DNA from: Bacteroidota bacterium
GTDB lineage: Bacteria > Bacteroidota > Ignavibacteria > SZUA-365
Direction of reading: 5' to 3'
DNA length: 36,752 bases
Assembly (NCBI GenBank): GCA_018224345.1
Contig: JAGTUW010000033.1
Coordinates: 1 to 36,752, forward strand
Below, piece after piece: positions 4,362 to 36,752 of this stretch. Numbering within the stretch: position 1 is the stretch's first letter; the number at the start of each line of letters is the position of its first letter. A model generated the notes under the pieces. The model was not told the DNA's origin. It saw only the letters and a program-made list of their open reading frames with translations, and did not search any database. A program made the translations under genes and the position numbers.

Positions 4362-7160
4362 GTGAGCCAGACCCCATTGCAAATTCGTATCAGTCTGAGC
4401 GTTCTGCTGCTTCTGTTTATGATCTCTCCACCATTGCAAGGAGAGTCTGAAGGTCCATTTGTACAACAACTGAACGCGGCAAGGGAGTCGATGCGGCAGA
4501 ATGCTGATTCCGCAGTGGTACTGGCGCGCCGGGCCCTGCGTATGGCCGACAATGACGAGGACCGTGCCAATGCACGGGAAATGTACGCACAGGCTCTGTG
4601 GCAGACGGGTGATTTCACCGCTGCACAGGTGGAATATGGCATCCTTCTGGGATACGCTGTCGAACAGGGCGATGCACAGCTTCGCGGGCGCGTGCTCAAC
4701 GGTATAGGCGGTATCGAACGATTGTTCGAGAATTACGATCTTTCCATCACACACCATGCCGAGGCCTACCGGTTATTCGATTCCCTTGGCAATCAGCTCG
4801 GAGCGGCACAGGCGATGCATGATCTCGGTGTGACACTGCATGTTATGGACCGTGGCGAGGAGGCGATGGAGATTCATCGCCGTGCCCTGGAATTGCGGAA
4901 AGAGGAGGGCAATAAACCCGGGATCGCCGAATCACATAACAGTATCGGTACGCTGTATCGTCATGCCGGCAACATCGATTCGGCTCTCTATCACTACCGC
5001 GAGGCACTGGCATTGCGCAAGCAATTCGGTGTGCTCAGCCTGGATGTGGCAGCGACGGTCAATAATATCGGGAATGTCTATCGCAGCGCGGGTGATCCGG
5101 CTCGTGCGCTGGAGTTTTACCGGGAGTCACTGAATATCTCCCGGAGTCTCGGATCCGACGGCATGATTGCAGTGACTCTGAAAAACATGGGGGCGGCATT
5201 CGGCCTGCTTCGGGATTTCCCAAGCGCGCGCGAAGTGCTTGATGAGGCGTTGTCGCTGGCCAAACGCATCCGCTTCGGCCGTGTATTGACCGAAGCCCTC
5301 GAAGAGAGGTCTCGCATTGAAGAATCCGCCGGGCGCCCCATCGAGGCGCTCGCCTACCTGCGACAGCTTCAGTCGGCGAGGGATTCGCTTTCCCGCATGG
5401 TCAACGACGCACGCCTGCGACAGGCGGAGACAAGGCTCTCGGAGATAAAAGAGAAACTCGAATTGGAGAAAGCCGGTGAGCGTGGCGGGGATTTCCTCGT
5501 CTTTCTGATCGTCATCATCGCTCTGCTCATCGTCATCGTCGTCATCGCGCTTTCCGCGTTGCGTATGCGCGGACGCGGCAACCGGGCGCTTTCGGAAAAG
5601 AATGCGGAAATCAGAAAAATCAATGCAGAACTTCAACGGCTCAACGCAGACCTGGCGCGTTCGGAAGAAAAATACCGTCTGCTTTTTGAACGCTTGCCCG
5701 TGGGAGTATTTCTCTATGACGGGAATCTGCGCATGCTTCAGGTCAACAATGCTTTTGCCGATATTATCGGAAGTCCGCGAACAGCACTTGAGGATTTCGA
5801 CCTCTCCATGCTCCGTGATCGCCGCATCCTGCCCGCACTCCAGGCTGCATTCAACGGTAACGGGGGCGCGTATGAAGGCGAGTATCGCGCATTGACAAAT
5901 GAAAATATCCTGCAGATATCATTGCGAACCGCACCCGTGCAATACCGCGATATGCCGCTCGCCTGTGGGATCGGCTTTGTGCTCGATATATCGAACTGGA
6001 AACGCGTCGAAGCTGACCTGATCGAATCACGTGAAATCGCAGTTCACGCCGACCGCCTGAAAAACGCCTTTCTGACAAATATTTCCCATGAAATCCGTAC
6101 ACCACTGAACATCATCATGGGGTATTTCGGTATCCTGCATCAGGATCTGCGCGAACGCATCAGCGAGGAAGAGGAAGAGTATTTCAGAAAAGTAGAGTTC
6201 GCTGTCCGTCGTCTGCTGCGGACTGTGGATCAGATACTGTCCCTCTCGATTCTTGAGTCGGGAAGCTACACAATTAATCCCGAACAGTGTACCCTGCATC
6301 AACTCGTAAAGGAACTGTATGAGGAAATTGCACCCCTCGCTTCCGACAAGGGAGTGGCCGTCCATTTCGAGAGCACGTGCAGGGAAGCTTATATATATAT
6401 TGACAAATACTCCGTTAGCCAGGCCTTGCGTAATCTCCTTGACAACGCCGTCAAGTTCACCGATGAAGGAGTCATCGATCTGGCACTCGATTGCAATGAC
6501 TCGTTTCTCTCCTTCATCCTGCGCGACACCGGTATCGGGATGTCCGAGGAGTATGTCCGTCGCCTCTACGACGCATTCTCGCAGGAGGACGACGGGTATG
6601 CGCGATCTTATGAAGGGCTGGGTCTCGGCCTGCGCCTGACCAAACGCTATCTTGACGTGAACAAAGGAAGTATACAGGTGGAGAGCAGGAAAGGTGAAGG
6701 CACGACGTTTACCGTGACCTTTCCGGTAACACACCATTTCCCGCGTTCCGAAGACACTGCTCCCGAGCAGGAGAGCCCCACGGTGACACTGGATCGTCGG
6801 TACACACTGTTGATAGTCGAAGACGATCACGAGACTCAGAAATTTCTGCAACTGATTCTCGCCGGCAGCTTCGATCTCTATTTCTCTGAATCAGCCGAGG
6901 ATGCCTGGCGTGAACTGCATCAGAACCAGGTGGATCTCGTACTGATGGATATCTCGTTGCGTGGCGACGAGGATGGTCTGCAACTGACCGGACGCATAAG
7001 AGAACACCCGCAATTCCGGGATCTCCCCATTATCGCTGTGACGGCACATGCCTTTGCCGATGATCGCCGCCGTAGCCTCGAAGCCGGATGCAACGAGTAT
7101 CTCCCGAAGCCCTTCCGGGTTCATCAGCTTCGGGAACTCGTCGCACGTTTCCTGCACTGA
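4362..7160 (+). CDS. Hybrid sensor histidine kinase: signal peptide, TPR repeats, TM, PAS, HisKA, HATPase_c, receiver (GTG start)
   Basis: TPR-like 'IAESHNSIGTLYRHAGNIDSALYHYREALALRK', TM 'FLVFLIVIIALLIVIVVIAL', H-box 'FLTNISHEIRTPLN', N-box 'LRNLLDNAVKFTDEG', G-box 'DTGIGMS..GLGLGLRLTKR', receiver 'LLIVEDDHETQ..LVLMDISLRGDEDG..VTAHAF..EYLPKPF'. Confidence 0.93.
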   Translation: MSQTPLQIRISLSVLLLLFMISPPLQGESEGPFVQQLNAARESMRQNADSAVVLARRALRMADNDEDRANAREMYAQALWQTGDFTAAQVEYGILLGYAVEQGDAQLRGRVLNGIGGIERLFENYDLSITHHAEAYRLFDSLGNQLGAAQAMHDLGVTLHVMDRGEEAMEIHRRALELRKEEGNKPGIAESHNSIGTLYRHAGNIDSALYHYREALALRKQFGVLSLDVAATVNNIGNVYRSAGDPARALEFYRESLNISRSLGSDGMIAVTLKNMGAAFGLLRDFPSAREVLDEALSLAKRIRFGRVLTEALEERSRIEESAGRPIEALAYLRQLQSARDSLSRMVNDARLRQAETRLSEIKEKLELEKAGERGGDFLVFLIVIIALLIVIVVIALSALRMRGRGNRALSEKNAEIRKINAELQRLNADLARSEEKYRLLFERLPVGVFLYDGNLRMLQVNNAFADIIGSPRTALEDFDLSMLRDRRILPALQAAFNGNGGAYEGEYRALTNENILQISLRTAPVQYRDMPLACGIGFVLDISNWKRVEADLIESREIAVHADRLKNAFLTNISHEIRTPLNIIMGYFGILHQDLRERISEEEEEYFRKVEFAVRRLLRTVDQILSLSILESGSYTINPEQCTLHQLVKELYEEIAPLASDKGVAVHFESTCREAYIYIDKYSVSQALRNLLDNAVKFTDEGVIDLALDCNDSFLSFILRDTGIGMSEEYVRRLYDAFSQEDDGYARSYEGLGLGLRLTKRYLDVNKGSIQVESRKGEGTTFTVTFPVTHHFPRSEDTAPEQESPTVTLDRRYTLLIVEDDHETQKFLQLILAGSFDLYFSESAEDAWRELHQNQVDLVLMDISLRGDEDGLQLTGRIREHPQFRDLPIIAVTAHAFADDRRRSLEAGCNEYLPKPFRVHQLRELVARFLH

Positions 7161-7326: not shown

Positions 7327-8301
7327 ATGGATGGTACGAATATAGACAGGAGAACATTCCTTCAACGCAGTGGCAAGGCGATAGGGTTTTCCGCCGTCGC
7401 GATCGCTGGGGGCGTATTGCTTCACGAGCCGGTGCGGCAGCCGTTCCATCGTGAAGCCGAACAAGTGATACAGCGTGATCTGCGCATACCCGGTATGACC
7501 GGCCGGCTTGTCACGGTGCGCGGGGACGACCCGGCACGCATGACGGCCGCGGCCCTCGCCTCTCTCGGTGGAATTTCTACATTTATTTCGGAAGGGGATG
7601 TTGTCGTCGTCAAACCGAATGTGGGGTGGGACCGCAGGCCGGAACAGGCGGCGAACACCAATCCCGACGTTGTCGGGGAGGTGGTACGGCAATGCGTCGA
7701 AGCCGGCGCAGCGCGTGTGCTCGTCACCGATGTGACCTGCAACGATGCGACCCGTTGTTTCAATCGCAGCGGTATCGCCGCCGCGGCCCGTGAAGCCGGT
7801 GCGGATGTGGAACTCGCACGCGATGCACATTTCAGGGAAGTGAATATGGGCGGTGCGATGCTTGGTACACAGCTTGTGTACGATGCTTACCTCGAGGCGG
7901 ATAAATGTATCAATATCCCGATCGCCAAGCATCATGGGCTGACCCGCGTGACACTCGGCATGAAAAATCTCTATGGCATCATCGGTGGCAATCGCGCCCG
8001 CCTCCATCAGGATATTAACAACAGTATTGCGGATCTCGGGAATTTTCTGCAACCGACGCTCGTGATTGTCGATGCCTGGCGTATATTGCTGCGGAATGGA
8101 CCACAGGGCGGGAGCCTTGCCGACGTCGAGGAGCGACGCATGCTCGTTGCATCCACCGATCAGGTGGCAATTGATGCCTGGGCGGGTGAGGAGTTTTTCG
8201 GCCTGCGTGCAGAAGAAATGGGCTGGCTGGGTCTGGCCGAGGCACGTGGCCTGGGTACGGCGGATTACGCCAGCCTGCCGTTTGAAGAGCTGACAGTCTG
8301 A
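7327..8301 (+). CDS. Tat-exported DUF362 domain-containing protein
   Basis: N-terminal twin-arginine signal 'DRRTFLQRSGKAIGFSAVAIAGG'; DUF362-like 'DVVVVKPNVGWDRRPEQAANTNPDVVGEVVRQCVEAGAARVLVTDVT..KCINIPIAKHHGLTRVTLGMKNLYGII'. Confidence 0.88.
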   Translation: MDGTNIDRRTFLQRSGKAIGFSAVAIAGGVLLHEPVRQPFHREAEQVIQRDLRIPGMTGRLVTVRGDDPARMTAAALASLGGISTFISEGDVVVVKPNVGWDRRPEQAANTNPDVVGEVVRQCVEAGAARVLVTDVTCNDATRCFNRSGIAAAAREAGADVELARDAHFREVNMGGAMLGTQLVYDAYLEADKCINIPIAKHHGLTRVTLGMKNLYGIIGGNRARLHQDINNSIADLGNFLQPTLVIVDAWRILLRNGPQGGSLADVEERRMLVASTDQVAIDAWAGEEFFGLRAEEMGWLGLAEARGLGTADYASLPFEELTV

Positions 8302-8321
8302 TCGCAAAGAGAGTATTCCGT

Positions 8322-10001
8322 ATGGCGACCTCAGAAAACCGCTTTCGATATCTGCGCAACGCGCGAAGGGTTTCCCAGGGACTGTTCTTTCTCCTGTTCA
8401 TGGTGCTGTTACTGCAGACCAATATCGATGCGCTGGATTCGCCGGATGAATTGCCGCAGATATCCGCACCGGTGGATTTCTTTCTCGAAATCAATCCCCT
8501 CATTGCCGTGACGACTGTGTTGTCCACACACACACTGTATCGCAATCTGATACTGGCTGTCGTTCTTATTGTCGCCACATTGTTCCTCGGAAGGTTTTTC
8601 TGTGGGTGGGTGTGTCCGATGGGGAGTATCAATCACGCCCTCGCCGCGATCAAGTCGCGACGCATGAAGGGTCGTCATCGTATCGGGCAGAATGCATGGA
8701 AACCATATCAGCGATGGAAATACGGTATACTCGTTGTAATGCTGGGTGCCGCGCTGGCAGGTTCTGCACTGGCAGGACTGCTTGATCCTATCTCTCTGCT
8801 GACCCGTTCGATGGCGCTTCTCGTACTGCCCGCCTACAATGTGTTGACGCAGGATGTCTACAGCTGGAGTCTGCACGCACAGCTCGGCGCATTCGACTTT
8901 CTGCTGACACCTGTTTCCTGGGTGACCTATGCCACGTTGATACGGGCCGAGCAGGTCGTGTTTCATCACACATTTCTGATACTGTTGTTGTTCGTCGGTA
9001 TTCTTGTCGCCAATCGCTTCATCACGCGTTTCTGGTGTCGCGGACTTTGTCCCCTGGGCGCATTGCTCGGCGTGTTCTCCAAGGTATCCATCGTCAGCCT
9101 CGAAAAACGCACGGCGCTGTGTACGGACTGCAACCGTTGCGCATTGCATTGTCAGGGAGGAGACAATCCGAAGCCGGGTGATACCTGGCATAAAACCGAA
9201 TGTCATCTTTGCATGAATTGCGTGGCAAGCTGCCCCGAGGCGGGAATCGCCTTCCGCTTTTTCCCGCAACGCGAGCAGACCACAACAGCGGTCAACATTT
9301 CCCGTCGCGCCGTGCTCGCCTCGGCGGGGGCGGGGATGCTGGCGATTCCTGTTCTCCGCACCGCAACGCATCCTGATCGTCCTTCAGATCCGACACTCGT
9401 CAGACCACCGGGGTCCCTGCATGAACGGGAGTTCCTCACTCGCTGCATCCGATGTGGAGAATGCATGAATGTCTGCCCCAACAACGCCTTGCACCCGACG
9501 TTCATGCAGGCGGGCGCCGAGGGGATATGGTCGCCCATGCTGATTCCCCGTATCGGGTATTGTGAACCCACCTGTGTGCTGTGTTCGCAGGTCTGTCCTA
9601 CCGGGGCGATTGATGAAATTACTGAGGAAGAAAAGGCCTGGGTGCCGACTGCCGGCAAGCAGGAAACCGACGGACCGCCAATTCGCATCGGAATTGCGTT
9701 CTATGACACCGGGCGCTGCCTCCCGTACGCCATGGCAAGGGAGTGCATTGTCTGTGAAGAATGGTGTCCGACGACTCCCAAATCAATTTATTTCGAAGAA
9801 GTGGAGCAGCGTGATCGAGACGGAAACTACATGTATCTGAAGCTTCCGCGCGTGGATCCCGGGATTTGTGTGGGATGCGGTGCCTGCACCTTTGCCTGTC
9901 CGGTGAAAGGTGCGCCCGCAATTTATGTCACTCCTGTCGGCGAGACGCGCAATCCGCAGAATAGGATTCTTCTGGAAGATCAATCACCCGGGAGGCAATG
10001 A
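8322..10001 (+). CDS. Membrane polyferredoxin, NapH-NapG/MauM-like fusion with six predicted [4Fe-4S] sites
   Basis: TM segments with FFCGWVCPMGS and WCRGLCPLGAL (NapH/CcoG-like); CTDCNRCALHC, CHLCMNCVASCP, CIRCGECMNVCP, CEPTCVLCSQVCP, CIVCEEWCP, CVGCGACTFACP; internal SRRAVLASAGAGMLAIPVL. Confidence 0.88.
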   Translation: MATSENRFRYLRNARRVSQGLFFLLFMVLLLQTNIDALDSPDELPQISAPVDFFLEINPLIAVTTVLSTHTLYRNLILAVVLIVATLFLGRFFCGWVCPMGSINHALAAIKSRRMKGRHRIGQNAWKPYQRWKYGILVVMLGAALAGSALAGLLDPISLLTRSMALLVLPAYNVLTQDVYSWSLHAQLGAFDFLLTPVSWVTYATLIRAEQVVFHHTFLILLLFVGILVANRFITRFWCRGLCPLGALLGVFSKVSIVSLEKRTALCTDCNRCALHCQGGDNPKPGDTWHKTECHLCMNCVASCPEAGIAFRFFPQREQTTTAVNISRRAVLASAGAGMLAIPVLRTATHPDRPSDPTLVRPPGSLHEREFLTRCIRCGECMNVCPNNALHPTFMQAGAEGIWSPMLIPRIGYCEPTCVLCSQVCPTGAIDEITEEEKAWVPTAGKQETDGPPIRIGIAFYDTGRCLPYAMARECIVCEEWCPTTPKSIYFEEVEQRDRDGNYMYLKLPRVDPGICVGCGACTFACPVKGAPAIYVTPVGETRNPQNRILLEDQSPGRQ

Positions 10002-12118
10002 TGAGACAGAAGGCAGGGCAGAAGAGGCTACGGAAGGAATTGCGATTGTTCGATGTGTTTGCCATCGCTACGGGTGCCACGTTGAGTGCGGGGTTTTTTA
10101 TTTTGCCGGGGATTGCGGCTGCACAGGCCGGACCAGCGATGATACTCAGCTACCTGATCGCGGCGATTCCGCTGATCCCCGCGATGTTCTGTACGGTAGA
10201 ACTTGCCACGGCAATGCCACGCGCAGGTGGCGCATACTACTTTCTGGACAGGACACTCGGTCCTGTCACGGGAGTCATCGGTGGGCTGGGATCCTGGTTG
10301 TCGATGATACTCAAAGTGGCATTCGCACTTGTCGGTATGGGCGCCTACATCGCGTTGTTCTTTCCACAGTTGCCGATTATTCCGGTTGGCGTTTCCTTCG
10401 CGATTGCCATTGCATTGCTCAACATGTTCGGTACGGGGAAGAGTGGACGTCTGCAGGTGCTGATGGTGCTCGGTCTGCTGCTGATACTGCTCCTGTTTAT
10501 CGGTGATGGCGTCATGCATGTTCAGGCGGATTACTTCGAAGGCTTTTTCGATGCAGGGACCGCGAACATTCTTTCCACTGCCGGTCTCGTGTACATCAGT
10601 TATGCCGGTGTCACGAAGGTGACCAGTCTCTCGGAGGAAATCGAGAATCCTGAACGCAACCTGCCGCGCGGGATTTTTCTCGCACTGGGTACCGCGCTGA
10701 TCATGTACGCACTCGGGACGTTGGTGATGGTCGGTGTCCTCCCCATGAAGGAACTTGCCGGGAGTCTGACACCGGCAGCAGCGGCGGCGGAACGCATATT
10801 CGGCCGTCCCGGAATCATCATTATTTCCATCGCTGCATTGGCGAGTTTTGTTTCCGTGGCCAATGCCGGGATGCTCAGCGCATCACGTTTTCCGTTGGCT
10901 ATGGCACGAGATCACCTGCTTCCACGTGTTTTCTATCGACTCGGAGCGCACGGCACTCCTGTTGTATCGATTCTGACAACACTGGGTATCACCGTGCTGA
11001 TCATTGTCTTTCTCAAACCCGTCGGTATAGCAAAGCTTGCGAGCTCGTTTCAACTTCTGATGTTCGCCCTGATATCACTTGCGGTCATTGTCATGCGTGA
11101 GAGTCATATCGCTTCCTATGACCCTGGCTACAAGACACCCTGGTATCCGTGGACCCCGTTGATCGGTATTTTTACACCCATCGTACTGGTTGTGAAAATG
11201 GGATTACCGGCGATTCTTTTCACCGTGGTACTCATCGCCAGTGGTATCGTCTGGTATGCCTTCTATGCCAGGGGCAAGACGGCGCGGACAGGAGCGATTT
11301 TTCATGTGTTCGAACGTCTCGGACGCCTCCGGTATCGTGGGCTTGACTCCGAATTGCGTGGCATACTCAAGGAAAAAGGACTGCGTGAAGACGATCCTTT
11401 CGATCAGATCGTCGCACGCAGTATGGTTATCGATATCAAGGAGTCGGTGGAATTCGAGGATGTCGTCGGTCGTGTCTCCCTCTGGCTCTCTCATGTGATC
11501 CCGCATACATCCCGCGAGATCGCACGGCAGTTTCTCGAAGGCACACGTATCGGAGCCACACCGGTCACACACGGGGTCGCCCTCCCGCATTTGCGTGTGG
11601 CCGGACTCACCGAAGCGGAGATGATACTGGTGCGCGCGCGCCAGGGGGTGCACATCGCGTTCAACAACCCGCTTACCGGACATGATGAGGAGGAGAACGT
11701 CAGCGCAACGTTTTTCCTTATAAGTCCGGAAAATGATCCCGGTCAGCATCTCCGGATTCTGGCGCAGATTGCCGGGAGGGTGGACGATGACAACTTCATC
11801 CGGATCTGGGAATCCGCCGAATCCGAACAGGAACTCAAGGAAGCGCTCCTGCACGATGAACGTTCGGTCGCACTCAGTGTCCGGCGGAACGATGCAACTG
11901 TGGTGTTGATGAATCACTCCCTTCGGGATATCGATCTGCCGGAAGGCTGTCTGGTTACATGGCTGCGCCGGGGTGAACAAGTGATCGTCCCCCGCGGCAG
12001 TACCGTCATCCATGAAGACGACCGCCTGACCATTATCGGTGACCCGCAGGCGATCCGCCATGTCCGTGAAACCTATCTGCAAGGAAAGAGAGGGAAACAC
12101 CGGCGTCCAAAACAATAA
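9998..12118 (+). CDS. APC-family amino acid permease with C-terminal PTS EIIA-like and TrkA_C-like domains
   Basis: Start 'LRLFDVFAIATGATLSAGFFILPGIAAAQAGPAMILSYLIAAI'; multiple TMs; EIIA-like 'EGTRIGATPVTHGVALPHLRV'; C-terminal 'LPEGCLVTWLRRGEQVIVPRGSTVIHEDDRLTIIGDPQAI' (RCK C-domain type). Confidence 0.88.
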   Translation: MMRQKAGQKRLRKELRLFDVFAIATGATLSAGFFILPGIAAAQAGPAMILSYLIAAIPLIPAMFCTVELATAMPRAGGAYYFLDRTLGPVTGVIGGLGSWLSMILKVAFALVGMGAYIALFFPQLPIIPVGVSFAIAIALLNMFGTGKSGRLQVLMVLGLLLILLLFIGDGVMHVQADYFEGFFDAGTANILSTAGLVYISYAGVTKVTSLSEEIENPERNLPRGIFLALGTALIMYALGTLVMVGVLPMKELAGSLTPAAAAAERIFGRPGIIIISIAALASFVSVANAGMLSASRFPLAMARDHLLPRVFYRLGAHGTPVVSILTTLGITVLIIVFLKPVGIAKLASSFQLLMFALISLAVIVMRESHIASYDPGYKTPWYPWTPLIGIFTPIVLVVKMGLPAILFTVVLIASGIVWYAFYARGKTARTGAIFHVFERLGRLRYRGLDSELRGILKEKGLREDDPFDQIVARSMVIDIKESVEFEDVVGRVSLWLSHVIPHTSREIARQFLEGTRIGATPVTHGVALPHLRVAGLTEAEMILVRARQGVHIAFNNPLTGHDEEENVSATFFLISPENDPGQHLRILAQIAGRVDDDNFIRIWESAESEQELKEALLHDERSVALSVRRNDATVVLMNHSLRDIDLPEGCLVTWLRRGEQVIVPRGSTVIHEDDRLTIIGDPQAIRHVRETYLQGKRGKHRRPKQ

Positions 12119-16277: not shown

Positions 16278-17813
16278 ATGGCCGGCAATACTATGACAAA
16301 CAATCGCCTTCTCAATTCCCGCCTCATCACTGATGAGGAAATCGACAAACCCAGATCGAACTGTGGTATCATCGGTGTCTACGGCAATCCGGACGCATCG
16401 ACACTGACCTACTACGGCCTGCACTCACTGCAGCACCGCGGGCAGGAAGCCTCCGGTATCGTCTCCTGCCAGCGAAGCAATGGAAACACACCTGCGTCCC
16501 GCCTGCGTGTGTTTAAAGCGCCGGGGCTGGTCACCGAGGTGTTTTCCGATCAGGACACGCTCGAAAAACTGCTGGTCGGCGATGTCGCCATCGGACACAA
16601 CCGGTATTCCACCACAGGGTCTGACAATCTGGAGAATATCCAACCTTTCATGGTCAACTACCGAGACGGCCAACTGGCGGTGGCGCACAACGGGAACCTG
16701 ACCAACACACGTTCGCTGCGGCAGAAGCTGGAGAAGGAGGGCACCATATTTCAGACCTCCACCGACACGGAAGTTATTCTTCATCTGACCGCACGCAGCA
16801 AGGCAGAGACACCGGAAGATCGTATCATGGATGCACTCAACACCGTGCAGGGTGCCTACTCTCTGGTCATGCTGCACGGTGAAACACTGATCGCCGCCCG
16901 CGATCCGCACGGTTTCCGTCCCCTGTGCATCGGCCGTCTCGGAGAAACCTGGATTATTGCATCGGAAACCTGTGCGCTCGATATCATGCAGGCAGAGTAC
17001 GTCCGGGATATCGAACCGGGAGAGGTGCTGTTTTTTGACCATCGCATGGATATGTCAGGACAGCCGGTACAGCGCCGGTTGCACTATGAACCTGAAAAGT
17101 ATCATCACTGTATCTTCGAGTTCATTTATTTTTCGAGACCGGATTCAAAAATATTCGGGGAAAACGTGGACAAGATCCGCCGCCGGCTCGGAAAAGCTCT
17201 GGCGGAGGAAGCTCCTGTGCAGGCCAGGGATGACGAACCGGTGTTCGTCATGGCTGTACCAGACAGTTCGAATACTGCTGCTGTCGGCTTTGTGCGTCGC
17301 GCAGGCAAGGATGGCTCGGATACACGTCTTGAGATCGGATTGATCCGTAATCACTATATCGGACGGACGTTCATTCAGCCGGGACAGGAAAAGCGCGAAG
17401 TGAAAGTGCGCATGAAATTCAATACGGTCAAGGGTGTGATCGAGGGCCGGAATGTCGTCATTATAGATGACAGTATCGTCCGGGGCACGACCAGTCGTCT
17501 GCTCATCAACCTTATTCGTGAGGCCAACCCCGCGGAATTGCATGTCCGTATCAGTTCGCCCCCCATCATTCGGCCCTGTCCCTACGGCATGGATTTTCCC
17601 AGCCGCGAGGAATTGATCGCACAGCAGCATCATGAGGATGTCGAAAGCATCTGCCAGGAGATCGGCGCTGATTCATTGGCCTATCTCTCGATCGATAAAA
17701 TGCTGGGCACCGTCGACCATGATGGGAAACGGGGCTATTGTACGGGTTGCTTTACCGGTGACTATCCAGTTCCCATCGAAGAGAACATGCGAAAGGAGGA
17801 TCTCGAAGATTGA
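16278..17813 (+). CDS. purF: Amidophosphoribosyltransferase (glutamine PRPP amidotransferase)
   Basis: 'SNCGIIGVYG..YYGLHSLQHRGQEASGIV', 'IGHNRYSTTG', 'VAHNGNLTN', 'SSTDTEVILHL' class (FQTSTDTEVILHL), 'VIIDDSIVRGTTSRLLINLIREANPAELHVRISSPPIIRPCPYGMDFPSREELIA'. Confidence 0.97.
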   Translation: MAGNTMTNNRLLNSRLITDEEIDKPRSNCGIIGVYGNPDASTLTYYGLHSLQHRGQEASGIVSCQRSNGNTPASRLRVFKAPGLVTEVFSDQDTLEKLLVGDVAIGHNRYSTTGSDNLENIQPFMVNYRDGQLAVAHNGNLTNTRSLRQKLEKEGTIFQTSTDTEVILHLTARSKAETPEDRIMDALNTVQGAYSLVMLHGETLIAARDPHGFRPLCIGRLGETWIIASETCALDIMQAEYVRDIEPGEVLFFDHRMDMSGQPVQRRLHYEPEKYHHCIFEFIYFSRPDSKIFGENVDKIRRRLGKALAEEAPVQARDDEPVFVMAVPDSSNTAAVGFVRRAGKDGSDTRLEIGLIRNHYIGRTFIQPGQEKREVKVRMKFNTVKGVIEGRNVVIIDDSIVRGTTSRLLINLIREANPAELHVRISSPPIIRPCPYGMDFPSREELIAQQHHEDVESICQEIGADSLAYLSIDKMLGTVDHDGKRGYCTGCFTGDYPVPIEENMRKEDLED

Positions 17814-20800
17814 GACAGCTCCGTCCCCGCATACTTCGGAAGCTGACATCGGTGCGCACCGCTCTGCTTTTTCTTTCTCCGTTCTTTCTGTTCTCACAGT
17901 ATGCGATCGCACAGCATGCCACCACGTCCGATACGTCGTCACCGGCGCAAAGGCGTGTCTTCGTCAAGGTATTCCATGACCAGCGTGCGGTGGAGGGCCT
18001 CACTGGTTTACGCTTTGCGTCCGCAGGTCTCCATGCAGTGCTCGATCGCTATGGCTGTGCCACGCCGCAACCGATGTTTGATAACAACGGGTTGGCCAAG
18101 GCCGGCATGGACGAGGAGCATCCGCTGGCCGATCTGTATCTGCTGACGCCCCGGCAGGGGACGGACCTTGAATATTTCGTTGAGGAATTATCCCGCCTTC
18201 CCGAGGTACGCTATGCCGAACGCGAAGGAATACTGCGGCTGCATTCGCTTCCTTCGGATTCGGCATGGGACAGCCAGTGGGGCATGCATCGCATCGGGAT
18301 CGTGGAGGCCTGGAACGCGACGCGCGGGAACTCCGACATCGTCCTTGCCGTGATTGACACGGGTATAGATTTCGATCATCCGGATCTCCGGACGCAACAC
18401 TGGATCAATACTGCCGAGGACATCAACGGGAACGGGCGTTTCGATCCCTGGCCCGCGGATGAAATCCGTGACGGTATCAGCGGGGATCTCGACGGTATCG
18501 ACAACGATGGCAACGGCTTTATAGACGATGTGCTCGGCTATGATTTTGTTGATCAGCCTCATCCCGGCAATGCCGCGGGGGGGGATTACCGCGATCCCGA
18601 TCCGCTTCCCCTCGATGAGATGGGACATGGGACAAGCGTTTCGGGTATTATCGCTGCTGCCACCGACAACGGCATCGGTATTGCAGGAGTCGCGCCGGAC
18701 TGTCGCATCATGACGCTTCGTGCCTTTGACGCACGCGGCTTCGGGGCGGAAGGCGATGTCGCACGTGCGCTTGCCTATGCGGTATCGAACGGTGCGCGTG
18801 TCGTCAATATGAGTTTCGGTGACGTGGTATATTCCCGCGTTCTGCGTGACGTTATCCGGTGGTCGTATGCGCGTGGAGTGGTGATGGTCTCTTCCGCAGG
18901 GAATTCACAGTCCGCCGCTCTGCACTATCCGAGCGCGTATGACGAAACGATATCCGTCTCCGCTCTGGCCTCCAATGACATTATCGCTGGCTACTCGAAT
19001 TACGGACAGACGGTCGACATCGCGGCGCCGGGCTCGGATATTCTCACAACGGATCTTGAAGGCAGATACACGCCGTTTTACGGTACTTCCGCCGCGGCAC
19101 CCTTTGTCTCCGGTGTTGCCGCACTGCTACTCTCACGCCATCCGCATTTCGGGCCGGAGGAAGTCCGTGGTATTCTTATCGCTTCCGCAGAAGATCTCGG
19201 GCCACAGGGCTGGGACGAGCGTTATGGCGCAGGCTTGCTGCGTGCCGACAGAGCTGTGGCGCTCGACAACCCCTCCGTCGTCCGCATTACCGCGCCTGGT
19301 ACCGACTTCGCTACCGATGCCGTAAGCATACGGATTCACGGGACTGCAGCCTCGCCGATCATGCGTGGCTTTACGCTCCAATACGGCGTTGGGGCCAATC
19401 CCTCCCGCTGGTTCCCTTTGAGCGACCCGGTAAACCGGCAGGTGATCGATGAGGAACTGGCGGTCTGGGACATCCAATTCCTGCCTGACAGCAGCTACAC
19501 GATCCGACTCGCGGCGGAAAGCGAGAAGGGCATAACGCTCGAAGATCGTGTCGTCATTCACATCGACAGAACACCGCCACGTATTCTCGGTGCACTGTTG
19601 GTCCCTGCGGTCGAGGCCAGCTCATACGGCATCTCCGCCGGCTTCACGACCGATGACCCCACACTGGGCAAGCTCTGGTTTCGCGAACAGGGATCCACCG
19701 CACCATTTCAGTGGGTGTCGGCGGAAGGGCAGTCGGAAAACAATCTCTTTATCGGACGCAGTCATCATATTTATCTGGGCCCGCAGTATTTCACGCCCGG
19801 AAGGACCTATGAATACTACCTCTCGGCCGAAAACGCCGTCGGCCTCGAGACCATTCTGCGCGAGGAGGACGGCCGGAATTTCACCTTCACCGTTCCACCA
19901 CCGATCAGCGCATTCGGCTTCAATCAAAAACCCTGGTCATTACCTCTCGGACGACTTGCGCGTATGACACCGGATCTCAATGGGAACGGTGTTCCGGAAT
20001 TATTGATGAACAATATCCGTGAGGACAATGATTTTCAGGCCTGGGAGTTCAACGGGCTTGGTTTCACGCGTGTCGGCGACGGTGCCCAGGGGAAGGAATT
20101 CCCCCGTGGAAGTGGCGATCTCGACGGTGACGGCTATCCGGAACTGCTGACTTCCTTTGTGCGTGACGGCTTTCTTTATCGCGGGAAAGCCGATGGCTTC
20201 CCCTCGCAGCGTATCTGGGCCGACACCGTTGACGGCAGCTTCTGGTCGGTCGATATCGCCGATGTCACCGGCGACGGTCAGCTCGAACTGCTTGCAATCA
20301 TCGATGATTCGACCTTCGGGGTGTTTGAGTGGACTGGCAGCACGGTCACGGAGAAAGCGCGTATCGTCAATCCGACGTCACCCGGCAGTGAACCGTACAA
20401 CAGCTTCAATGCATCGCGCGCGGCCACCGGCGACTTCAATGGCAACGGACGGCCGAATATTCTGCTGGGCGATCGTGATGCTGATTTCTTCATCGTCGAA
20501 TACGACGGTGCGAACTTCGATGTGATCTGGGGGTCGGAAAATGATTTTATCGAGGGGGGGGACTTTGTCGCTGCCGGAGATTTCACAGGAGATGGTCGTG
20601 ATGAGTTCGCGCTCGGCTTCCGGACGGCGGGCGACGATGTCGTGCCTTTCTGGGTGTTCGGTATCTTCCGTCTCGACGCGAACAACCGGCTCGAAGCGCT
20701 GTGGAATGTGCAATTTCACGGCGTATCCGAAAGTGCGCAGTACGGTGCGTTCACGCGCATCCGCAACAGTCTGACGGCGGCGAATATCGACGACGACCCC

Positions 20801-22168
20801 GAGCTGGAGTTGATTATTTCTTCGTTTCCGGAGATGTATGTTGTTGATTTCAATAGCGTCACGCGGGAGTATGACATCATCTGGCAATACCCGCTGGTCA
20901 ACACCGACGCGGTTGCGGTGGCTGATTTCGATGGCAACGGTATTCCGGTCATCGCATTCGCAACTCCGGACAGTGTGATATTTTTTGAGCGTGATCTTCC
21001 GTATAGCGGTCCGGAGCCACCACGTTCATTGGATGTGCATTATATCGACAGCCGGAGCACGCGCATTTCATGGACCACGGGTGTGCCTGCGCCTGAGTAC
21101 CGGCTCTACAAAGGTGAAGACCCGGGGAATATGGAATTGATGGGGACATTCGCCGCGCCGATACAGTTGACCGACCCGACGCTGCTTCCGGGTACGACGT
21201 TGATGTATGCGATCAGTGCCTATGATGAACAGAGGAGTCCGCCGGAAAGCCCAAGAGTGTTTTCCCGACTTTTCCGGCCCCACGAAACAGCGCGTATTGA
21301 CAGTATCGTATTCGTCGGTGGGGGGCAGTTACGTTTGACGGTGTCACAGAGCATGGGCACGGGCATTCCTTCTCCCTCACATTTTCGTCTCGAGGGACGT
21401 ACCGAGCCCGTCAGCGTGCTTCTCCTCGATGAGTACACCCTGCTGCTGAGTTTCGGATCGCTGAACGACGGCGACTATGGACTTTCACTGAGCGGATTGC
21501 GTGACGGGGAGGGGATTCCTTTCGCGGACGCGACGTACGGTCCTTTTGAAGTTCGCAATACCGTACGCGACGAATGTTATATTGCACGTGTCGAGTATCA
21601 TCCGCCCCGCAGCTTCGATGTCTGGTTCAGCGCGCCGGTGGATGCGACGACAGCCGGGAACCCGGCGCATTACGAATTCCTCCCCGACGGCACGGTGGAA
21701 ACAGCCGAACCGGATCCCGGGCAACCCGCGCTTGTGCGTATCACCGTCAGCGATGATGCACGCATCGGCGCACTGGGCAGGGAGTACGTTCTCAAGGTCC
21801 GTCATGTCCGCTGCATCTCGGGATCCATCATTGGTAATGGCGCTGGCAGCACTGTGGGTGTGATTCTGAACCGGCAGACCCTCGATGACGTATTTGTGTA
21901 CCCGAATCCGCTCAAACCGGTGCACGGACAGCATGTCGTCACCTTTGCGAATCTGACTCCCCGTGCGACTATCCGGATCTACACATTGTCAGGTCTTTTT
22001 ATTGCGGAGGTGGCGGAGAGCGATGGAAACGGAGGTGTGGAATGGGATACGCGCAACGAGCATGGGACACACATCCCTGCGGGTGTTTACCTCTTCCATG
22101 CAACCGGCAGTAATGCGGAAGGGAAGGAAGTTGAAGCGAAACTTGGTAAATTTGCCATCATCAGGTAA
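17810..22168 (+). CDS. Secreted S8-family (subtilisin-like) protease with FG-GAP/VCBS repeats, fibronectin-like modules and T9SS type A sorting domain (TTG start)
   Basis: Catalytic motifs VLAVIDTGIDFDHPDL, MGHGTSVSGIIAA, FYGTSAAAPFVSGVAALLLS; at least six D-x-(N/D)-G-(N/D)-G-type repeats between ~19970 and ~20945; C-terminal 'VFVYPNPLKP..ATIRIYTLSGLFIAEV..WDTRNEHGTHIPAGVYLFHATG'; AGGAGG about 10 nt upstream of TTG. Confidence 0.92.
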   Translation: MRQLRPRILRKLTSVRTALLFLSPFFLFSQYAIAQHATTSDTSSPAQRRVFVKVFHDQRAVEGLTGLRFASAGLHAVLDRYGCATPQPMFDNNGLAKAGMDEEHPLADLYLLTPRQGTDLEYFVEELSRLPEVRYAEREGILRLHSLPSDSAWDSQWGMHRIGIVEAWNATRGNSDIVLAVIDTGIDFDHPDLRTQHWINTAEDINGNGRFDPWPADEIRDGISGDLDGIDNDGNGFIDDVLGYDFVDQPHPGNAAGGDYRDPDPLPLDEMGHGTSVSGIIAAATDNGIGIAGVAPDCRIMTLRAFDARGFGAEGDVARALAYAVSNGARVVNMSFGDVVYSRVLRDVIRWSYARGVVMVSSAGNSQSAALHYPSAYDETISVSALASNDIIAGYSNYGQTVDIAAPGSDILTTDLEGRYTPFYGTSAAAPFVSGVAALLLSRHPHFGPEEVRGILIASAEDLGPQGWDERYGAGLLRADRAVALDNPSVVRITAPGTDFATDAVSIRIHGTAASPIMRGFTLQYGVGANPSRWFPLSDPVNRQVIDEELAVWDIQFLPDSSYTIRLAAESEKGITLEDRVVIHIDRTPPRILGALLVPAVEASSYGISAGFTTDDPTLGKLWFREQGSTAPFQWVSAEGQSENNLFIGRSHHIYLGPQYFTPGRTYEYYLSAENAVGLETILREEDGRNFTFTVPPPISAFGFNQKPWSLPLGRLARMTPDLNGNGVPELLMNNIREDNDFQAWEFNGLGFTRVGDGAQGKEFPRGSGDLDGDGYPELLTSFVRDGFLYRGKADGFPSQRIWADTVDGSFWSVDIADVTGDGQLELLAIIDDSTFGVFEWTGSTVTEKARIVNPTSPGSEPYNSFNASRAATGDFNGNGRPNILLGDRDADFFIVEYDGANFDVIWGSENDFIEGGDFVAAGDFTGDGRDEFALGFRTAGDDVVPFWVFGIFRLDANNRLEALWNVQFHGVSESAQYGAFTRIRNSLTAANIDDDPELELIISSFPEMYVVDFNSVTREYDIIWQYPLVNTDAVAVADFDGNGIPVIAFATPDSVIFFERDLPYSGPEPPRSLDVHYIDSRSTRISWTTGVPAPEYRLYKGEDPGNMELMGTFAAPIQLTDPTLLPGTTLMYAISAYDEQRSPPESPRVFSRLFRPHETARIDSIVFVGGGQLRLTVSQSMGTGIPSPSHFRLEGRTEPVSVLLLDEYTLLLSFGSLNDGDYGLSLSGLRDGEGIPFADATYGPFEVRNTVRDECYIARVEYHPPRSFDVWFSAPVDATTAGNPAHYEFLPDGTVETAEPDPGQPALVRITVSDDARIGALGREYVLKVRHVRCISGSIIGNGAGSTVGVILNRQTLDDVFVYPNPLKPVHGQHVVTFANLTPRATIRIYTLSGLFIAEVAESDGNGGVEWDTRNEHGTHIPAGVYLFHATGSNAEGKEVEAKLGKFAIIR

Positions 22169-24003: not shown

Positions 24004-25980
24004 ATGTCCGACGATACTTCCACATCCCTGATACGGAAACTGCCGCTGCATCTCGCCAATCAGATCGCTGCGGGGGAGGTCGTCCAGCGTCCTGAATCCG
24101 TAGTGAAGGAACTGGTGGAAAACGCCATCGATGCCGGGGCGGAACATGTCACGGTGAATATCAGCAATGCCGGGAAGACGCTCATTCAGGTGATCGACGA
24201 TGGTTCGGGCATGAGCGAAGAAGACGCCCTGCTGGCTCTCGAGCGCCATGCCACAAGCAAGTTGCGCAGCCTCGAGGATCTTGAACGCATCATGACCTTC
24301 GGGTTTCGCGGTGAGGCACTGCCGTCGATCGCTTCCGTAGCCAAAGTGGAACTGCGCACACGCAACGCAGAGGAAGACATCGCCACGTTTCTTCGCATCG
24401 AGGGAGGCAACATCGAGGAACGGGGGAAAGTAGAGGGAGCGAGAGGCACGTCAATCAGCGTGAAGAATCTGTTTCACAACACGCCCGCACGACGTCAGTT
24501 TCTCAAGACCAACGCAACGGAATACAAGCATATCGCCGACTCGATTCAACGGTTTGTGCTGTCGTATCCGCATGTGCATATCACCTTCATTTCCGACGGA
24601 ACGACGGTATATGATGCTCTGCCGGGCGATCTCCCTGCACGCGTTGCCTATCTGTTCGGTGATCGCGTCGCCGAATCACTGCTGCCTGTTCGCGAGGAGA
24701 CCGATCTGATTACCGTGACCGGATATATCGGGCGTCCGAGTTTCGCAAGGAAATCGCGTGGCGAACAATTCCTTTTCGTCAACGGCCGCTATGTCATCAG
24801 CCGCTACCTTAACCACGCCGTGGTCAGTGCCTACGACCAGATGATCGATCAGGGTGCGTTCCCGATGTATCTTCTTTTCCTGAATATCGATCCGAAACAG
24901 ATTGATGTGAATGTTCATCCGTCGAAGCTCGAAGTAAAATTCTCAAACGACAGGAATATTTACACCATTCTCAATGCAGTGGTCCGGCAGAGTCTCTATC
25001 ACCATGACCTGACCCCGAGTATCTCCTTCCGTGACAGTGATCAGGCGCAGGACGTCACGCGGGACAGAGCAGGCGACGTCCCCGGTATGGATGCTGACAC
25101 ACAACGTTCCGGCTACCCGCAGCAGGGGTCCGGTGGTGGAGAGCGTGATTTCTCACGAACCCGTTTTTCCGATGCGCATGAACGGGGTGACCGGCCGGAG
25201 GAAAAATACGATTCCTTCTCCTCGCTCCGCCGCGGGATGGACGATCGTCCGGCCGCCGGAGGTCACATGGACCCCCGGCAGATCGATGATCTCTTCCGTT
25301 CCCTTGACATAGACGCGGGGCAGGGCAGCGGAACGAGCCGGAACGATACCGGTGGGGGAACTGATGAGACGGACACCGTGATTCTTCCCAGCGAAAAGCC
25401 GGTATCGGATATTCAGTTTCTCTGGCAATTGCACAACAAGTATATATTTACACCGATCAAGTCCGGTTTGATGATTGTCGATCAGCATGTGGCGCATGAA
25501 CGGATTCTGTACGAGAAGGGATTGGCCGCGCTGGAGGACAATGCCTCCTTCGCCCAGCAAATGCTCTTCGCGCACCGCTTCCGGATGTCGGCGGGGGATT
25601 TCGCCCTGATCAGCGAGTTGAATTCGGAACTGCAGCGGCTGGGCTTCACACTGCGGCTTTCCGCTCCGGATTCGGTTGCAGTCGAGGCAGTGCCGCAGGA
25701 TGTCCGTCCCGGAATGGAAGAACACATATTGGAGGAGATGCTCGAACAGTTCAAAGAGTATCAGCATGCCGGCATAACCGACAGGCGTCATAATGTTGCG
25801 GCATCCTACGGGTGTCGCGCCGCCATCAAGGCGGGCGATAAACTCAATGCTGCCGAGATGCAGCATCTGATCGATCAACTCTTTGCGACATCCAACCCCT
25901 ATGTTTGTCCCCACGGCCGGCCTATTGTCATCAAACTCTCACTCGACGAACTCGACCGGCGCTTCGGACGCAGCAGCTGA
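24004..25980 (+). CDS. mutL: DNA mismatch repair protein MutL
   Basis: '[37 protein letters not shown]', '[23 protein letters not shown]', '[16 protein letters not shown]', '[10 protein letters not shown]'; C-terminal [12 protein letters not shown] and VCPHGRP motifs. Confidence 0.97.
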
Positions 25981-26063
25981 TAAGTGCACGCGCGTCACGG
26001 AGGACTGCGAGGGGACAGAATAAAATTCACGTATTCCAGTTTCAGACCAAGCCCGGTATCCCC

Positions 26064-29000
26064 ATGGAAAGCACAGCATACACATCGAAGCACAATATCC
26101 GTCTCGTTACAGCCGCATCGCTCTTCGACGGGCATGATGCGAGCATCAACATCATGCGCCGCATTCTGCAGGCCGGCGGGGCGGAGATCATCCATCTCGG
26201 ACACAACCGCTCCGTTGCCGAGATTGTCGATGCCGCGATCCAGGAGGATGTACAGGGGATTGCCATCTCTTCGTATCAGGGCGGACATATGGAATACCTC
26301 AAGTACATGAAGGATTTGCTCGTGCAACGGGGTGCAGCGCATATCCGGTTGTTTGCGGGCGGGGGTGGTGTCATTGTTCCGGAAGAAATTGCGGAACTGC
26401 ATGCCTACGGAATCGATCGTGTGTTCTCTCCCGAGGATGGCCGCGAGCTCGGTCTGCAGGGAATGATCAACGTCGTTCTCGAGACCTGTGATTTTGCAGC
26501 GGGGCAGGATGAGAGGCTGCGTATCGAGGAAGAACACATGTTCATCGACGGAAAACCGTTGAGTACATCGAACGGTGTGTTGCTGCGTGACAGGAAGCTC
26601 CTCGCTGTCGCCCTGACAGCACTCGAACACCATGACGAGGTGGAGGTCCCGCTTCCGGATGAGCGCGTTGTACCCGTCCTGGGCATCACCGGCACCGGTG
26701 GCGCAGGGAAAAGTTCACTGACCGATGAAATCGTGCGGCGCTTTCTGCAGTCTTTTTCCGATATGCATATCGCCATACTCTCGGTCGATCCTTCGAAGCG
26801 ACGGACTGGCGGAGCGTTACTCGGTGACCGGATCAGGATGAATGCGATTGCGGCGACCGAGCCGGAAGGACATCCGCGGGTCTTCATGCGGAGTTTCGCG
26901 ACCCGGGCAGCCAACACCGCGACATCGCGGGCACTGCACCGTGCCATCGATCTGTGCAAAACCGCAGGCTACGATCTCGTGATTGTAGAAACCGCCGGGA
27001 TAGGGCAGAGCGATTCGGAAATTGTGGATCTCGTCGACGTGAGCATGTACGTGATGACACCGGAATACGGTGCGCAGACACAGCTAGAGAAAATCGACAT
27101 GCTCGATCTTGCGGATATTGTCGTGCTCAACAAGTACGAGAAGCGCGGGGCCGAGGATGCCTTGCGGGACATACGCAAACAGTACAAGCGCAATCGAACA
27201 ATCTTCGATGTCGCTGATGACGAGCTTCCGGTGTATCCGACCATTGCCAGCCAATTCAACGACGTCGGTACACATCACCTGTTCTGGAATATCGTGCGGA
27301 CCCTCGGTGCTCAGACCGGTGTCACATGGACAACGGAATTCGGACGCGAACGTCTGCTGCCGGACAAGGCGGCGGTGATCCCACCGGAACGCGCGCGTTA
27401 CCTTTCGGAAATCGCCGATTCTGTGCAGGACTATAAAACGTGGGTGGAGGAACAGGCGGAGTTCGCTCGACGGTGGGGACAGCTCGAAGGTGCGCGGGTC
27501 GCACTGGTCGAAGCCACAGACCGGAGGGAGTTGAATATTTCCGGCGCTGGCGGGGTCGTGGAAATTTCATCGATCGAAGTGCGGCAGGATCTGTTCAATC
27601 TGCTCGATACTCAGATTGAATATTTCCGTGCGAACATAGCAGCGGAGAATCTCGCCCTGCTCGATCAATGGGAGGATGCACGTGAAGCATACGCGAAGGA
27701 GACGCTGACGACGCGTACCCGCGACCGCGAGATCGTGACCACGTTGCACCACACGACGCTCTCGGGGACGCGCGTACCCAAGGTCTCCCTGCCCCGCTAC
27801 CGGGATCGGGGAGATATCCTGCGATGGATTCTGCTCGAGAATGTCCCGGGCAGCTATCCCTACACTGCGGGCGTGTTTCCATTCAAGCGGGAGAATGAGG
27901 ATCCGACGCGCATGTTTGCCGGGGAAGGGACTCCCGAACGTACCAACCGGCGCTTTCATTATGTCAGTGAAGGACTCCCCGCCGCACGTCTTTCCACGGC
28001 CTTCGACTCGGTCACGCTCTACGGCGAGGACCCTGATGAGCGTCCGGACATCTACGGAAAAATCGGCAATGCCGGTGTAAGTATCTGTACGCTCGACGAC
28101 ATGAAGAAGCTTTACTGCGGGTTCGATCTGACTGCGCCGACGACATCAGTTTCCATGACCATCAACGGGCCTGCGCCGATGATACTCGCCATGTTCATGA
28201 ATACCGCCATCGATCAGGAAGTCGAAAAGTGGCTGGTACGCAACGGTGTGTTCGAGCAGGCGCAACAGGCCATCGATGCTCACTATGCCTCGTTGAACAT
28301 TTCGCGTCCGGTGTATACCGGTATCGGGGATGTTGCCGGCATGTTGCGCGAACTCAATAATCCAGCGCTGCTTGAGGAAGGCCAGGTCCACCGTTATTTC
28401 GGCCTCGGAACTCTGGGTGTGTCGGGGGATTTCTTCGTCGGGAACGGTATCCTCCCGGAAGAGGAGTACGCGCGTATACGCAGTGAAGCGATGTCCGTCG
28501 TCCGCGGTACCGTCCAGGCCGACATTCTCAAGGAAGACCAGGCACAGAACACATGCATATTTTCTACCGAATTTGCATTGCGCATGATGGGCGATATTCA
28601 GGAAAACTTCGTGCGCAACCGTGTCCGCAATTACTATTCCGTTTCCATCAGCGGGTATCACATCGCCGAGGCAGGCGCCAATCCGATATCCCAACTGGCT
28701 TTCACGCTCGCGAACGGCTTCACCTATGCGGAGTATTACCTCTCACGCGGTATGCACATAGATGAATTCGCTCCGAATCTCTCTTATTTTTTCTCGAACG
28801 GAGTCGACGCCGAGTATGCAGTGATAGGACGCGTTGCACGCCGCATATGGTCGGTTGCCATGAAGCGGCTTTATGGGGGAAATGACCGCTCACAGAAACT
28901 CAAATACCATATACAGACCAGCGGACGCAGTCTGCACGCGATGGAAATCGATTTCAACGACATCCGTACAACGTTGCAGGCCTTGTACGCCATCTATGAC

Positions 29001-29609
29001 AACTGCAATTCATTGCATACCAATGCGTATGACGAAGCGATTACCACGCCGACCGAGGAAAGTGTACGGCGCGCCCTGGCCATACAGATGATTATCAACA
29101 AGGAGCTCGGTCTCGCCAGAAACGAAAATCCTCTGCAGGGGGCTTTCATTATCGAGGAACTGACCGATCTCGTCGAAGAAGCCGTGCTCCTGGAATTCCG
29201 TCGCATCTCGGATCGCGGTGGTGTGCTCGGCGCGATGGAGACGATGTATCAGCGGGGGAAAATTCAGGAGGAATCAATGCTGTATGAGCACAGGAAACAT
29301 TCCGGTGAACTCCCCATCGTCGGCGTCAATATGTTCCTGCGCAAACGGAATCCCGGCGATGCGGAAATGCAGCCACCTGAACTGATGCGTTCCACCGAGG
29401 CCGAAAAGCTGCAGCAGATCGAAAACCTGCGTGCTTTCCAGCAGCGTAATGCCACCGCTTCCCCCGAGGCAATCTCATCAGTGCAGCACGCCGCACAGGA
29501 GCATCGCAATGTCTTCGATGCGTTGCTCGAATGTGTCAAAGTCGCTTCGCTCGGACAAATATCCACCGGCCTCTATGATGTCGGAGGACAGTACAGGAGA
29601 AATATGTGA
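26064..29609 (+). CDS. icmF: Fused isobutyryl-CoA mutase IcmF (B12-binding domain + MeaB-type GTPase + mutase large subunit)
   Basis: 1181 aa from ATG 26064; N-terminal B12 domain '[31 protein letters not shown]'; GTPase '[22 protein letters not shown]', '[21 protein letters not shown]'; mutase '[13 protein letters not shown]', 'AQNTCIF', '[14 protein letters not shown]', '[44 protein letters not shown]'. Confidence 0.95.
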
Positions 29610-36345: not shown

Positions 36346-36752
36346 TGCGCATTGCATATTTCGATACTGTTTCAGGTATCAGTGGCGATATGACGCTCGC
36401 CGCCTGCGTGTCCGCCGGCGTTCCCTTCGACACTCTCGAGCGCGAACTCCGTAAACTCCCCCTCGATGGCTACCGGTTGACCATGCGCACGGTCACGAGA
36501 TCGATGATCAGTGCCGTCAAAATCGATGTGATACTTGATTCACAGCAGGCAGAGCGCAAGCAGCACACAAAAGATCCGCATATCCCGGATGTCGGTGAGC
36601 AGGACGAACATACACACACGCACAAAGGGCACACGCACGAGGGGCACACGCACGAGGGGCACACGCACGAGGGGCACACGCACGAGGGGCACACGCACGA
36701 GGGGCACACGCACGAGGGGCACACGCACGAGGGGCACACGCACGAGGGGCAC
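36345..36752 (+). CDS. larC: LarC (nickel pincer cofactor biosynthesis, DUF111), N-terminal part; runs off the window
   Basis: Own translation from ATG 36345 (overlapping pyrF TGA): MRIAYFDTVSGISGDMTLAACVSAGVPFDTLERELRKLPLDGYRLTMRTVTRSMISAVKIDVILDSQQAERKQHTKDPHIPDVGEQDEHTHTHKGHTHEGHTHE...; not in the ORF track because no stop lies in the window. Confidence 0.88.
   Translation, partial: MRIAYFDTVSGISGDMTLAACVSAGVPFDTLERELRKLPLDGYRLTMRTVTRSMISAVKIDVILDSQQAERKQHTKDPHIPDVGEQDEHTHTHKGHTHEGHTHEGHTHEGHTHEGHTHEGHTHEGHTHEGHTHEGH
36627..36752. repeat. Perfect 15-bp tandem repeat GGGCACACGCACGAG (8 full copies plus partial, truncated), encoding (GHTHE)n within larC
   Basis: Units at 36627, 36642, 36657, 36672, 36687, 36702, 36717, 36732 and partial at 36747. 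Confidence 0.97.

Follow-up and report, generated by a model that had tools for sequence, protein, structure and literature searches.

NapGH is an established type of quinol dehydrogenase (PMC5449189 and references therein). A polyferredoxin family was named a NapH-NapG fusion by Tooke et al. (2017; PMC5449189); its 28-cysteine pattern was counted as seven [4Fe-4S] clusters. For one member, the transmembrane part was shown to insert by both Sec and Tat, and reporters attached to it were exported in a Tat-dependent manner. A partial search of the literature yielded no report of dual Sec/Tat polyferredoxins having a DUF362 partner.

The DUF362 family (PF04015) has, to our knowledge, no established function, and none was found described in the part of the literature that was covered. 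No solved DUF362 relative was found in the PDB by sequence search. DUF362 and LarA_N are placed in one Pfam clan (PMC11770544), and examples of DUF362 domains that have 4Fe-4S motifs nested in them are on record (PMC7955657). The fused polyferredoxin was already known; what is added here is its DUF362 partner and the predicted LarA fold of that partner.

Genomic context

The window, i.e. the whole stretch of DNA analysed, comprises 36,752 nucleotides from a Bacteroidota genome of 3.5 Mb with a completeness of about 97%, the nearest relatives of which are Bacteroidetes MAG20 and an uncultured Ignavibacteria bacterium. Two neighbouring genes on the + strand, both with ATG starts and separated by 20 bp, encode a DUF362 protein of 324 amino acids (7327..8301) and a polytopic NapH-NapG-like polyferredoxin of 559 amino acids with 28 near-invariant cysteines (8322..10001); both open reading frames agree with the first-pass annotation. 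A TPR-PAS hybrid sensor kinase (4362-7160) lies directly upstream of the pair. It is syntenic across the family (loci L197-L204 and L212) and a role as regulator is possible. Elsewhere in the window, a subtilisin-like protease whose C-terminal part weakly matches the type IX secretion protein PorZ (17810-22168) and IcmF, a fused isobutyryl-CoA mutase (25905-29609), were identified. The start of larC, for nickel insertion in the nickel-pincer nucleotide (NPN) cofactor, was located at 36354-36752, where it runs off the contig end; the break falls inside a His-rich GHTHE repeat, and the remainder is probably on contig C2 (10656-11609).

Downstream of the pair an APC permease with C-terminal PTS-EIIA and TrkA_C domains (Pfam) is encoded on the + strand at 9998..12118. 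Its ATG (9998) overlaps the TGA of the polyferredoxin gene (9999-10001) as ATGA, as had been noted; the single operon suggested on that basis did not extend to a conserved unit. Throughout the genus of the window the genes keep the order sensor kinase, DUF362, polyferredoxin, permease, MscS, and within that genus alone is the permease directly 3' of the polyferredoxin. In sister genera it is shifted by about 1.1-1.6 kb, in one case (L201) with a phosphofructokinase-like ORF in between; it was not found nearby in three more distant family members, and it is absent from most other loci of the pair. The permease was consequently rejected as a conserved operon member, and is a local neighbour.

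The polyferredoxin

The protein matched the NapG, NapH and MauM/NapG models of NCBIfam with E values of 6e-28 to 1e-18, all under the curated cut-offs; the equivalog scores were 97.8 bits for NapG (cut-off 269) and 74.7 bits for NapH (cut-off 234). Based on the napH and NapG matches, the fused architecture proposed earlier was borne out, with both halves in one 559-residue chain. The NapH-like half (8322..9251, + strand) was delimited by the NCBIfam napH match, hydropathy and cysteine conservation, and contains membrane helices, the CX3CP motifs C94/C98 and C239/C243, and two cytoplasmic four-cysteine groups within C267-C304. The NapG-like half (9408..9935, + strand; NCBIfam NapG E 5.6e-28, conservation) contains four four-cysteine groups, C375-385, C414-425, C466-482 and C516-526, which are predicted to be periplasmic. 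Six CxxCxxC-type clusters had been counted at first. The six classical four-cysteine groups stand, while the two CX3CP motifs had been missed, which brings the total to 28 cysteines. All 28 follow the expected order, and none is kept in fewer than 86 of the 89 homologues.

Five transmembrane helices are a feature of the family of Tooke et al. (2017); in the window protein, hydropathy peaks were located at about residues 17-40, 65-101, 132-175, 206-239 and 330-348. The last transmembrane helix is weakly hydrophobic (hydropathy 1.51 at residues 330-348) and is preceded by an internal twin arginine, SRR, at residues 327-329; the two elements together, SRRAVLASAGAGMLAIP, occupy 9297..9368 on the + strand. 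R329 is kept in 89/89 polyferredoxins and position 328 is R in 74 and K in 15. The predicted layout of the clusters is thus two to three on the cytoplasmic side and four beyond the membrane, behind the internal Tat signal. The structure model of this protein was poor (pLDDT 55) and was left unused.

The closest described protein is the dual Sec/Tat polyferredoxin Q1NSB0 of deltaproteobacterium MLMS-1 (PMC5449189), which has the same fused NapH-NapG layout. As in the family of Q1NSB0, the cysteines of the window protein suffice for seven [4Fe-4S] clusters, three on the cytoplasmic and four on the external side, and a twin arginine stands directly ahead of the final helix, whose hydrophobicity is low; the phyla in which the two occur overlap. 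The fused polyferredoxin, at first seen as new, therefore belongs to a family already described by Tooke et al. (2017; PMC5449189). With NapGH (and MauMN) it has in common the NapH-like and NapG-like parts with their cluster motifs, but it is a single polypeptide scoring far under the NapG and NapH equivalog cut-offs, and has DUF362 rather than nap or mau genes alongside. None of the window genes scanned was a nap or mau catalytic gene, in line with the initial reading, and the molybdopterin-family proteins of the genome sit on other contigs. Since no such catalytic gene is nearby, the conduit has DUF362 as its one constant partner. At two loci in other genomes, a second NapH-like polyferredoxin adjoining an Rrf2-type regulator was observed close to the pair.

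Conservation of the gene pair

The polyferredoxin, searched against 297 genomes of the phylum (E<=1e-30), gave 28 matches. In 27 of the 28 genomes a DUF362 gene is immediately 5' of the polyferredoxin gene on the same strand, with gaps of mostly -4 to +14 bp; L055 is the sole locus without one. In the reverse direction, a polyferredoxin was found directly beside DUF362 in 73 of its 80 closest GTDB homologues, which were picked as nearest relatives and represent the subfamily and not all DUF362 proteins. This figure joins two tallies: a stricter envelope rule by itself gave 62, to which were added one pair cut off by a contig end and ten proteins of Myxococcota type that carry N-terminal extensions, with adjacency taken from the ORF map. 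For the remaining seven, the polyferredoxin is at most 2.4 kb away in three and absent in four, the latter being loci of Acidobacteriota type with no polyferredoxin in reach. The homologues come from Bacteroidota, Acidobacteriota, Nitrospirota, Myxococcota, Deltaproteobacteria, Aminicenantes, Zixiibacteriota and others, and many of the relatives in these counts are incomplete metagenome assemblies.

Random placement cannot explain adjacency in 27/28 and 73/80 genomes, and the check on gene-neighbourhood co-occurrence that had been proposed for this pair was strongly passed. At three Acidobacteriota loci, two of them with the genes directly adjacent, the order is polyferredoxin-DUF362, which argues for functional coupling over inheritance alone. 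No further gene was common to all neighbourhoods of the pair among the loci of the phylum; as the other neighbours vary, the pair itself is the conserved unit. The two proteins show correlated pairwise distances (r=0.89, 0/2000 permutations), a value confounded by the species history common to both. No fusion of DUF362 with the polyferredoxin (Rosetta-stone evidence) was found among the loci examined, and none of the other six DUF362 genes of the genome has a polyferredoxin beside it. Taken together, the genomic data support the partnership well, as judged from sequence.

Several other genes recur at these loci. An aldo/keto reductase, Tat-exported in most cases, was observed near the pair at six loci and is accompanied by DUF6599 proteins at several of them; that of L080 has a weak Fer4 match as well. 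Membrane-fused spermidine-synthase-like proteins are encoded near DUF362 genes at five Acidobacteriota loci, three of which have no polyferredoxin.

The DUF362 protein

The window protein is a member of PF04015 by the curated profile (E 7e-49, 167 bits against a gathering score of 24), and this was its sole Pfam match; Lar_N (PF09861) was not matched. Its N-terminus, MDGTNIDRRTFLQRSGKAIG, is a twin-arginine signal, with the signal region DRRTFLQRSGKAIGFSAVAIAGGVLLHE at 7345..7428 (+ strand) assigned from the sequence. The twin-arginine character ascribed to it earlier was confirmed by the motif NIDRRTFLQ, and a gene for TatC lies in another part of the genome; together with the internal SRR of the polyferredoxin, Tat signals are thus carried by both DUF362 and the NapG-like part. 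Of the 80 closest homologues, 79 carry an RR-type motif and the remaining one is truncated at a contig end. The window subgroup differs from other DUF362 proteins in its predicted Tat export and its pairing with a membrane polyferredoxin. A second exported DUF362 set was observed on contig C119 of the same genome (1383-4805). It comprises a DUF6599-like lipoprotein and two DUF362 proteins, one bearing a type IX secretion tail and the other a paralogue exported by Tat (37% identical). In two related genomes the set is found no more than about 10 kb from the DUF362-polyferredoxin pair.

The AlphaFold2 model of the protein was confident (pLDDT 85.6). In Foldseek all 19 PDB matches at E<=0.001 were members of the LarA (lactate racemase) superfamily, recent single-histidine LarA-like enzymes included, with a best E of 2e-7. 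The TM-scores against LarA structures were modest (0.37-0.47 by query length), so the match is at superfamily level only. A LarA fold is therefore predicted for the DUF362 protein of the pair, as for the LarA superfamily (DUF2088, Lar_N), with which it shares Pfam clan CL0471.

The near-invariant polar residues are K96, N98, W101, D135, K201, H203, K213, N214, D236 and D249. K201, H203, K213 and N214 are shared by all 104 sequences compared, and H227 by 84 of them; these five residues define a putative LarA-like active-site stretch at 7891..8010 (+ strand), based on conservation and hhalign. In a single weak hhalign comparison (E 0.016), H203 was paired with LarA His174 and K213 with Lys184, and H227 fell near His200; the expected register was obtained from the cropped core alone and not from uncropped comparisons. 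In LarA, Lys184 anchors the cofactor and His200 is a nickel ligand (PMC11770544, PMC9283937). The protein thus appears, from its sequence, to keep equivalents of His174, Lys184 and His200. Unlike LarA, it shows no evident counterparts of Arg75 and His108 in the weak profile alignment, has no Lar_N match, is predicted to be Tat-exported, is paired with a polyferredoxin and is independent of LarC. A conserved cysteine pair was considered as redox centre and rejected, C138 being C in just 69/104 sequences and C144 in 76/104.

Proposed function and alternatives

Conserved pairing, export signals, cluster layout, predicted fold and the invariant Lys/His site lead us to propose that the pair forms a unit at the periplasmic face of the inner membrane in which the polyferredoxin, as an electron conduit coupled to quinone, serves a LarA-fold oxidoreductase of the periplasm, a reading to which we assign a probability of roughly one half. 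The NapH-like half would take electrons from menaquinol or a cytoplasmic donor, or return them, and the NapG-like half would carry them across the membrane; the conduit part is supported by the precedent of NapGH. The exported DUF362 protein would be either the oxidoreductase at the end of the chain or the subunit of it that binds the substrate. It would act at the LarA-like pocket, and its cofactor would be inserted prior to export through Tat. A small hydroxy- or keto-type molecule may be the substrate, a guess by analogy with LarA hydride chemistry and the weakest step of the proposal. LarA chemistry is redox-neutral overall, which counts against an oxidoreductase of this fold, and five orphan cases (the four Acidobacteriota-type DUF362 loci and the polyferredoxin of L055) count against the pairing.

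The DUF362 protein could instead dock on the polyferredoxin as a subunit without catalytic activity, in a structural or substrate-binding role, the true reductase or oxidase being encoded elsewhere in the genome and differing between organisms. What surrounds the pair varies from locus to locus, conduits of the NapGH type can serve enzymes whose genes lie in other places, and the Tat-exported aldo/keto reductase and a DUF6599 protein, each near the pair in six loci, would suit such an arrangement. The near-invariant polar site, however, seems from its sequence to resemble an active or cofactor site more than a docking surface, and we consider a docking subunit unlikely. A role in assembly, repair or quality control of the periplasmic Fe-S clusters would fit the fact that DUF362 is paired strictly one to one with a protein whose many clusters are oxygen-sensitive. 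Yet Tat substrates gain their clusters in the cytoplasm before export, whereas DUF362 is itself exported, and the other DUF362 proteins of the same genome have no polyferredoxin nearby; such a role is quite improbable. Adjacency alone is linkage and not contact, and the two could be independent envelope redox proteins of one stress or anaerobic regulon. We give this little credence, as the tight gaps, the survival of the pair in swapped order and its spread over many phyla exceed what shared regulation usually preserves.

The cofactor

Use of NPN by DUF362 would require LarC in the same genomes. Among 28 high-quality module-bearing genomes of the phylum LarC was present in 10 and missing from 18, including two single-contig genomes; the canonical nickel-pincer nucleotide thus cannot be the general cofactor of DUF362. 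LarC is enriched with the module across the phylum (10/28 vs 10/269, Fisher p 1e-6). A single class holds nearly all of the module-bearing genomes. Within it the association is not robust (p 0.02-0.25 for class sizes of 80-60 in the sample, which were assumed), and shared ancestry or lifestyle is the likelier cause. That DUF362 uses NPN like LarA, with the polyferredoxin supplying electrons, is very improbable on these counts and with no counterpart of Arg75, notwithstanding the predicted LarA fold, the Lys/His equivalents, the phylum-wide enrichment, and the LarC and Lar_N protein encoded in the genome itself.

The oxidoreductase proposal may accordingly be narrowed to a periplasmic LarA-fold oxidoreductase with a non-NPN cofactor of its own, wired to the quinone pool through a dedicated polyferredoxin. 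We put this narrower form forward tentatively, as possible but rather doubtful.

Significance

The pair gives a constant protein partner to the functionally orphan dual Sec/Tat polyferredoxins, and a predicted fold and candidate active site to the orphan domain DUF362. Both orphans are joined in one testable hypothesis, that of an electron conduit with a periplasmic LarA-fold enzyme, and the pair is found in many phyla, cultured relatives such as Polyangium included. If the narrower form were true, the lactate racemase superfamily would gain, in the DUF362 proteins of these pairs, its first branch that is exported and carries out net redox chemistry, one with a wide distribution among anaerobes and uncultured phyla.
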